NCBI GenBank assembly: GCA_947561715.1
Contig: OX387203.1
Span: 5,146,001-5,210,000 of the forward strand
Length of the DNA stretch: 64,000 nt
From: Ascidia mentula
Taxonomy: Eukaryota > Chordata > Ascidiacea > Phlebobranchia > Ascidiidae
Reading direction: 5' to 3'
This document shows positions 39,001-42,000 of this stretch, one piece after another (the stretch's first letter is position 1; each line of letters opens with the position of its first letter). A program made the translations under genes and the position numbers. The notes below the pieces were generated by a model that saw only the letters and a program-made list of their open reading frames with translations, did not search any database and was not told the DNA's origin.

Positions 39001-42000
39001 GGCAAAAGTGTCGAATCTCCCGATTAAAATTCATTCTTCTCCTGTCAGTCATGTTAAATGCAGTGTGAGTTGAATTTAAGTCTTGCTTTGTAGTCTTAAG
39101 AATGCATGCAGAAAGTTCGTTCCAACCAATTCCAAATTTTTTGTAGTCTCAACCAGCGTCACCAAAGGATGGCGATGACAATTCTCAGTCCGACAAAGTT
39201 CTCTACTGTGTGTGTAAAAAACCATCTAGTGGTGAGTTGTGTGATTCTTCCCACGAACAATTCTTCGACTAGCATTTACATCAGTCGTTGATGTATAACT
39301 TATGCTGTTCATTTCAATGTTGATTCCTTATTTTCACCAGGTTTCATGCTTCAATGTGAGGTTTGTCATGACTGGTTTCACTCAACCTGTGTTCCTCTCC
39401 CAAGACTAAACAATTCCAAAAGCAAGGTATAATCAGTATAGTAGTAGTTTTGAACACTTAATTTAACTGTAAACGGTTGTGCAACGCTAAAGTAAATGTG
39501 TGTAAAAAACCACCAAACTAAACATATGATATGAAATCAAGTCCCGCCATGTCTGCAATTCAACCTTTTATACTTGACCTAAACAACAATATTCCCAACT
39601 AAATTTCAGGTACAACAGCTATATGAGCTGAAATTCTTGTGTCCGCTTTGCCATCGCTCCCGTCGTCCGCATCTAACAACCATTCTAACCCTTCTTCTCC
39701 AACTCCAACGACTACCCGTCAGAATCAGAGAAGGGGAAGCGCTCCAGTGCGCCACCGAGCGGGCGATGGCGTGGCAAGATAAAGCGAGAAAGGTGCTTTC
39801 TTCGCCGGAATGTCAGAGGGCGTTGGAACAAGCCGTAAAACTAACCGAGTGAGTTTGGTTGAATGTTGCATGCAGTTTTCCTCCTATTTCCAAACAAGCG
39901 CACCACGCAGATTATATTATGCAGCTTTAACTTGGCATAGGCAGCTTATGATAAACGGGATCGTATTCTACTATTCGTGGATGGATACGGGCTTGGCCAC
40001 AGTGTTCCCATCTTGGTGTGTAACCGGTAGTTTGTGCCCAGTTTGGTAATTAATGGTTGTCGCGACTGTGCAGTCATTTAGCTGACAAGATCATTGTCAC
40101 AACAAAGTTACACTGATGAGACCTGCAGGTCGAAACAGTGACCATCTGTATGCAGCTCACTATAAAAATAATTCAACGAACCTGTTCTATTTCGTTTCAG
40201 TGAATCTGAATCGGAGGAAACGAAACTAACGAGGAAACCACGCAAGAAACGACCCAGTGAAAGTTTAAACACAGGCGATGGGGAAATCACGTGTAGGATT
40301 GAGAGCGATAAGAAACGGAGAGTTGAAGCAGGAAGTGTCGCAGGTGAGTTTGCAAAAACTTGTGTATTGTTCACTACTCTACATTTCCCTGAGTGTTAAA
40401 AAATGTAAACTAATGTTTAATTATTGAAAACTTAACCAAAAATTTTAAAGAATTTTTTTCAATTTATTTTTTTTGTTAATACTTCCAACAAATGCCATAA
40501 AATCGTTGCACAGTGTCAAAATTTGTCAACGGCATTTCATGCACCATAGCATTACTCTGACACTCATACGCACTTTTCAACAATTTAGGTTAAAAATGCT
40601 TAACATTAACCAGGCCGACCAGATGCTCGCGACTCAATAGACGAAGCAATTGAAGCCGTTATCCAGAACACGAAAGAACGATTAAACCCTGAAAACTCTG
40701 TGTCAGAAGGCGTTGACCAACTCCTCAACGCTGCCAATCAAGCGGAACGGCGGTTCAGCAGCCAATCAGAAGCGAGTGACGCTCGTTCGACCGAAGACGT
40801 CATGGAGGCAGCCGAGGCGTTAGCCATGATTGCCGGCTACCCGAGCAAACAAAAGCCCACGGAACTTGACAACCGGTTAGCTGTTAAAACCGATTCCCTG
40901 CGACCTGGAGATTCTGTTTCGCCCCCAAGCGGTGTGAAACCTGCTAATTGTGCTCCACAAGGTGGCGGTATGAACCAGGTGGCTCGGCCCAAAACTCCGG
41001 AACTTGAATGTAGGGAACAGCTCACGGAACAATTTACGCCGAATAAAGGTTACGTCAGGGGAAATTTGTCGTTTTTTTTATTTTTCCCTGCTTAAGTCTT
41101 TGACAGTTACGTGTTTTTGTCGCTTTGATTAAACGTTTACTTTTTATTTTCAGGAACTGGAAACGTTTGTGCGTCCTCGCCGTCAACAAACCGCAACCCC
41201 ATACAAGAAACTGTAAGTACATAATATACTACGGCTTGTTCTAAGTCGTATTACAGCGGTTTGATATTCAACATACGTCAAACTGCAGACCGCCATCCCC
41301 GTTGTAATCAGAGAAGAAACGAAACAACTTCTCGAAAGTTTGATGCTGGAGGGAGATTTGCTGGAAGTGACTCTAGCCGAGACGCAGACAATATGGAAGA
41401 TATTGCAAGCGACCCAACCTACCAAGGATGAGAAGTAAGATTTTGCCGATTGGTGGTGAAGGTTTTTTTGCCACACGATGCAATTGTAGCAATCACGTGA
41501 GTTAGACGCGACGAGAATGGTGTATTACGTCATAATATACAGCCCAACAATTTGTGGAGATTTCGTGCGAATGTGATGCAAAAATATAATATGCGACAAA
41601 AGCGGAGAAAATGGATATTTTTAACACATACCAATAGCTCGCGAAAATGCCCGAAGCAATATATGTCTCTGACTCTGTATCGTCCACTTTCTCTTATGAC
41701 TTTCATTATTTAAACAGTGCTACTTGTACGGCGTGGATTTCAAATTTAAGCTTTTCTTTCAGTTTCATCGATCTTCTTGAGCAAGAGGAACAAAAGTTTT
41801 TTCAAACTTCTCTCGACGACGACGAGGGAGAGAAAAAGCGAAGAAAGAAAGAGGACTCTGTCGCTCCGGATAAACGTCGCAAAAAGCAAAGATCGGTAAT
41901 TTCTTAGCACCGTTAACTTCGACAACAAGTCGATTTTACACTTCTCTCGTTTTTAGACTGACGAGAAAGAGAAAAAGGATAAGACTGAGAAGAGAAGAAG

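Follow-up and report, generated by a model that had tools for sequence, protein, structure and literature searches.

A complete hammerhead core with its three stems is present at positions 40106–40157 (+) of the window (the whole 64,000-nucleotide stretch of Ascidia mentula DNA that was analysed), and it lies within an intron of a KDM5 gene. This copy, termed h40, is probably a partly decayed type I hammerhead derived from a non-autonomous hammerhead-bearing repeat that inserted in the sense direction. The hammerhead ancestry of h40 is supported by sequence comparisons with related copies in the window. The sequence is presumably without function today.

The hammerhead fold of h40

The hammerhead consensus consists of the core motifs CUGANGA and GAA, the pair A15.1–U16.1 and an NUH cleavage triplet. 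h40 displays CTGATGA, GAA, the pair A40135–T40149 and a GUA triplet that ends at position 40150. The elements were read directly from the bases (Table 1). The helices are correctly spaced: helix I has 6 of 7 pairs, helix II has 4 of 4 with a tetraloop, and helix III has 4 of 4. The six standard pairs of stem I include a G-U pair (40108–40155), and the exception is an A-C mismatch at 40110/40153. Cleavage is predicted between positions 40150 and 40151, 3′ of the GUA triplet. Helix I is open and helices II and III are capped; thus the topology is that of a type I hammerhead. An earlier note on this DNA had described the core, stems II and III, the cleavage A, the 6 of 7 pairs in stem I and the spacing, and had assigned the fold to type I. 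The description is exact base for base, and the type assignment holds.

Table 1. Elements of h40, its host intron and the related copies (window positions)
Feature	Position	Strand	Remarks
Host KDM5 intron, 352 nt	39849..40200	+	GT..AG, frame unbroken across; predicted from sequence
h40 stem I, 5′ strand	40106-40112	+	direct base reading
h40 core CTGATGA	40113-40119	+	direct base reading
h40 stem II, 4 bp	40120-40123 with 40128-40131	+	loop TGCA
h40 GAA	40132-40134	+	
h40 stem III, 4 bp	40135-40138 with 40146-40149	+	7-nt loop TGACCAT
h40 cleavage nucleotide A	40150	+	direct base reading
h40 stem I, 3′ strand	40151-40157	+	direct base reading
x34	34361..34496	-	without stem II; GAAA incomplete
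h51, left arm of inverted pair	51801..51976	-	core CTGTTGG
h52, right arm	52041..52212	+	core changed to CTGATAA; cleavage nucleotide G; mismatch in stem II
h56, left arm	56818..56994	-	all 7 bp of stem I paired; core reads CTGTTGG; 3/4 pairs in stem III
h57, right arm	57066..57239	+	core intact; cleavage nucleotide G; mismatch in stem II

The KDM5 host gene

Ten protein pieces, seven of them from the KDM5-like gene, were searched against Pfam. On the plus strand between 30.0 and 42.5 kb the matches are, in order, JmjN, ARID, PHD, JmjC, PLU-1 and a C-terminal PHD, the last with 24.8 bits at a cut-off of 24. The gene is assigned to KDM5 on the basis of this domain make-up and order. The piece directly before the intron has a weak PLU-1 match (E = 2.5e-4; 20.8 bits, under the cut-off of 28.5), which covers an earlier part of the profile than does the match of the piece at 38.3 kb. 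The domain make-up, the GT..AG borders and the continuous frame bear out the location in a KDM5 intron given in the earlier note.

h40 is in the sense orientation in this intron, and 50 nt separate the predicted cut from the 3′ splice site downstream. A cut between 40150 and 40151 would place these 50 nt, including the presumed branch region (the branch point is guessed from the sequence), on the 3′ piece. The 5′ splice site and the presumed branch region would thus end up on different pieces. The related copy x34 is located shortly before the stretch that codes for JmjC, the match to which starts at ~34505; as x34 is antisense, it would not act on KDM5 pre-mRNA.

Pattern and Rfam searches

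A descriptor, with thresholds fixed after h40 had been seen, requires the core, four pairs in each of stems II and III, six or more of the seven pairs in stem I, and a cleavage position other than G preceded by T; it detects one site in the window (h40) versus one site in 400 first-order Markov windows. A looser pattern, CTGATGAN{6,36}GAAA, gives 7 matches in the window, compared with an average of 1.5 over 100 shuffles, and the hammerhead repeat family accounts for two of the seven.

Several other candidates failed and are not hammerheads. Matches to the looser pattern at 4401, 32019, 38516 and 38522 do not pass the stem descriptor, nor does the match at 42640–42670 (+), which by eye is a plain hairpin repeat. 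An extra row of a descriptor run, at 48547 (+), has 0 of 7 stem I pairs. It should be noted that a short hairpin repeat in the KDM5 gene at 42615–42690 (TTTCGCCTGC ... GCAGGCGAAA) imitates the CTGATGA...GAAA arrangement without being a hammerhead.

Rfam gives no match anywhere in the window at the gathering score. At a lax threshold, RF00008 (Hammerhead_3) is the sole hammerhead row and matches h40 with 29.2 bits versus a gathering score of 48.5 (E = 1.6e-4 with 261 bases, 0.039 with the whole window). The core and stem II of the model align with h40. The alignment nevertheless follows a type III arrangement over 40091–40141 and leaves the type I stem III unused; the open helix of RF00008 is III, whereas that of h40 is I. 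No row for a type I model is among the matches listed, in an output where overlapping matches within one clan are reduced to the best. The covariance-model check named in the earlier note therefore yields a match to h40, but one below the gathering score and not of type I. With the related copies, no hammerhead row is obtained up to E = 10 for 34300–34560 and 56800–57260, or up to E = 5 in the whole-window run for the pair at 51.8–52.2 kb.

A family of related repeats in the window

A low-stringency comparison reveals sequence related to h40 at 34.4, 51.8–52.2 and 56.8–57.2 kb. A profile was made from the five related copies without h40; in an nhmmer search it finds h40 at 40088–40160 (+) with 29.2 bits, versus a best score of 6.7 bits in 30 shuffled windows. 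A covariance model (R1) was built from the four arm copies, with h40 and x34 left out. It gives 38.9 bits for h40 and 44.8 for x34, and 10.9 for the next, unrelated site in the window. When this alignment is modelled from sequence alone, h40 scores 30.6 bits and x34 28.6. A chance resemblance of h40 to a hammerhead is rejected on the basis of the descriptor simulation, the independent profile, the covariance model and the shuffled windows.

h40 resembles the family over only 73 bp around the ribozyme. As the similarity stops there, h40 may derive from a related element rather than from the same element as the other copies. The repeat that the earlier note saw elsewhere in the window is thus present in five related copies, though the stretch they have in common with h40 is short. 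The note also proposed spread by a mobile element; such spread appears likely, and related copies are found on both strands.

Viral contigs were scanned with a 15-base string taken from the window copies, which gave 60 loci with 62 sites. A hammerhead-like core is present at 7 of these 62 sites, in 5 of the 60 loci, all preselected by the 15-base string. These cores are taken as phage hammerheads. The family profile matches six stretches in 4 of the 60 viral loci (E up to 0.1), with a best score of 18.3 bits and in the core only. Since viral hammerhead-like sites reach this score, part of the h40 profile score reflects the common hammerhead core. The viral cores are at L015 8045 and 8740, L048 3338 and 3925, and L029 11857, and on the minus strand at L032 45–59 and L051 4967–4981. 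L015 and L048 have two sites each, and an ATG lies shortly downstream of some of the cores.

Four of the six window copies are arms of ~400-bp imperfect palindromes (51801–52212 and 56818–57239), in which the hammerhead-derived motifs of the two arms are oppositely oriented. Segments 47921–52947 and 52952–57973 form a ~5-kb tandem segmental duplication with 96% identity, with one inverted arm pair per unit. As the inverted pairs are at matching positions of the duplication, they are taken to represent one pair that was copied once. By this comparison the six copies appear to comprise about four independent lineages. Family copies in the window are single or inverted and not tandem. No tandem array of hammerhead units was found; the five window arrays reported by a tandem repeat finder have periods of 17–20.

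All five relatives of h40 are damaged, and none looks cleavage-competent from its sequence. The parts that are kept differ between copies. CTGATGA is kept in h40, h57 and x34, stem II in h40, h51 and h56, and stem III in h40, h51 and x34. h51, x34 and h56 have a GUC site, and stem I is fully paired over 7 bp in h56 and x34. These are likely to be parts of an ancestral hammerhead.

Pair conservation

In the hammerhead register, 90% of 80 cells in the six aligned copies are paired; when the register is slid by 1–3 positions the figure falls to 20–36%. This collapse shows the hammerhead register to be right for the family. The earlier note had named compensatory changes in related copies as a check, and in the window copies none are seen: two-sided changes occur in 0 of 14 pairs (6 sequences, about four lineages), and the 8 unpaired cells of the 80 are spread over 5 of the 14 pairs. 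No covariation measure is above shuffles, as all 500 shuffles attain each of them.

The family could alternatively be an imperfect hairpin or fold-back (MITE-like) repeat that is not a ribozyme and whose arms are hammerhead-like by accident. This would agree with the palindromic arrangement of four of the six copies, with the absence of covariation, and with computed folding of the left-arm copies (h51 and h56), which form long hairpins. It leaves unexplained why the core, the cleavage position and all three stems occur together, and why CTGATGA is kept in h40 and x34, both outside the palindromes, as well as in h57. Stem III with the GUC site in h51 and x34, and the perfect stem I in h56 and x34, also speak against an accident, as does the rate at which the descriptor finds a site like h40 alone, 1 in 400 simulated windows. 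An accidental likeness is considered extremely improbable.

Predicted folding and possible activity

The folding of a 56-nt stretch containing h40 is unremarkable (MFE z-score −0.62; 53 of 200 shuffles are at least as stable). In computed folding, h40 prefers another structure to the hammerhead fold, which lies 5.4 kcal/mol above the MFE; in the four arm copies the hammerhead fold is 12.3–15.6 kcal/mol above the best predicted fold. Among four hammerhead pairs of h40 that were checked, one stem II pair has a probability of 0.37 in the isolated stretch, and in three longer contexts the probabilities of all four are 0–0.11. Such predictions are blind to the tertiary and co-transcriptional effects that hammerheads rely on, and they weigh against activity without settling it. 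By eye, no contact between loop 1 and loop 2 is recognised in h40.

h40 may still be an active but neutral ribozyme, which cleaves a fraction of the pre-mRNA or of the excised intron without consequence. Every core letter and the GUA triplet are present, and the single mismatch in stem I is perhaps tolerated. Stems II and III could form co-transcriptionally, ahead of the 3′ strand of stem I. The competing structure, the lack of a recognised loop–loop contact and the sub-threshold Rfam score all argue the other way, and continued activity seems unlikely.

The letters that h40 has in common with at least one relative lineage make up 10 of 10 in the core, 26 of 28 in the stems and 11 of 18 in loops and flanks. 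A core so well kept in a diverged copy could hint at constraint; the hint is biased, however, because h40 was picked for its intact core. This bears on a further reading, in which h40 is a domesticated intronic ribozyme that the host keeps, with the cut 50 nt before the 3′ splice site tuning KDM5 splicing. The sense orientation and the predicted cut upstream of the presumed branch region are compatible with such a role, and h40 is the sole copy of the six with an intact core, an allowed cleavage triplet and near-complete stems. There is also a precedent in amniotes, the intronic hammerheads of RECK, CTCL and DTNB, which are type I, lie in introns of protein-coding genes and are likely retroelement-derived (PMC6155905). 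h40 is similar in these respects. The amniote hammerheads are conserved, and tuning of splicing has been proposed for them. Against domestication of h40, the stems show no compensatory change among the six copies, the competing fold is the more stable by 5.4 kcal/mol, and the probability of the hammerhead pairs in the intron context is low. Domestication is thought to be very unlikely. If it were true, that is, if selection had kept h40 as the element decayed, the cut would control the amount of functional histone demethylase mRNA, in parallel to the amniote cases but in a different gene and a different animal.

Origin of h40 and relation to known hammerheads

The preferred explanation remains that h40 is what is left, in decayed form, of a repeat that carried a hammerhead. 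Published hammerheads include those of type I in animal repeats, the minimal ones of Penelope-like elements and the intronic ones of amniotes (PMC7229834, PMC7761336, PMC6155905). Classical type I hammerheads in animal genomes are mostly located within non-LTR retrozymes. In live elements of this kind, the hammerhead cuts multimeric transcripts into unit-length RNAs, which are believed to become circular and to be copied back (PMC7229834). By analogy, we infer that the source repeat of h40 was retrozyme-like or Penelope-associated and that h40 arose by retroposition.

In a live element of this kind, the ribozyme would cleave the transcript of its own repeat at the junction of the cleavage nucleotide with stem I. 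The cut would produce unit-length RNA, which, judging from published animal retrozymes, would be circularised and then reverse transcribed. A repeat would have inserted in the sense direction into the KDM5 intron, where the hammerhead core would have outlasted the rest. What would be left is h40 as it appears now, with the core intact, a mismatch in stem I, a competing fold favoured and no element body recognisable beyond 73 bp. Slow or no cleavage of KDM5 pre-mRNA by h40 is expected, with normal splicing.

The window family shares with metazoan non-LTR retrozymes a type I topology, the presence of several copies and a short repeat with no long open frames of its own noted (PMC7229834). The published elements differ in being tandem repeats, of 150–450 bp, whereas the window copies are single or inverted. 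This difference, together with the absence of tandem arrays of such units from the window, counts against a retroelement origin. The minimal type I hammerheads of Penelope-like elements/Terminons (PMC7761336) resemble h40 in being dispersed in non-coding DNA and in the lack of a loop–loop contact, which in h40 was judged by eye. Those motifs are described as being without helix III or tertiary loop contacts, in contrast to h40 with its 4-bp stem III and 7-nt loop.

The KDM5 copy was not found in titles or abstract openings among the matches listed in a literature search, a weak negative as most subscription papers are outside its coverage. The present data add one dispersed hammerhead-bearing repeat family, here in single copies or inverted pairs and not in tandem. 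As it stands, h40 illustrates the decay of such motifs; should it prove to be both conserved and active, it would offer a natural test case for the recruitment of a transposon ribozyme to splicing regulation.

Other open reading frames in the window

Beside the KDM5 gene, an NLR-like frame of 468 aa (44989–46395, +) carries a NACHT domain along with a match to the NOD2 winged helix. On the minus strand, two similar sets of oxidoreductase-like frames (16437–19239 and 21469–25496) are flavin monooxygenase-like by eye, and one piece shows a Pyr_redox_3 match below the cut-off. The two sets look like a tandem gene duplication.
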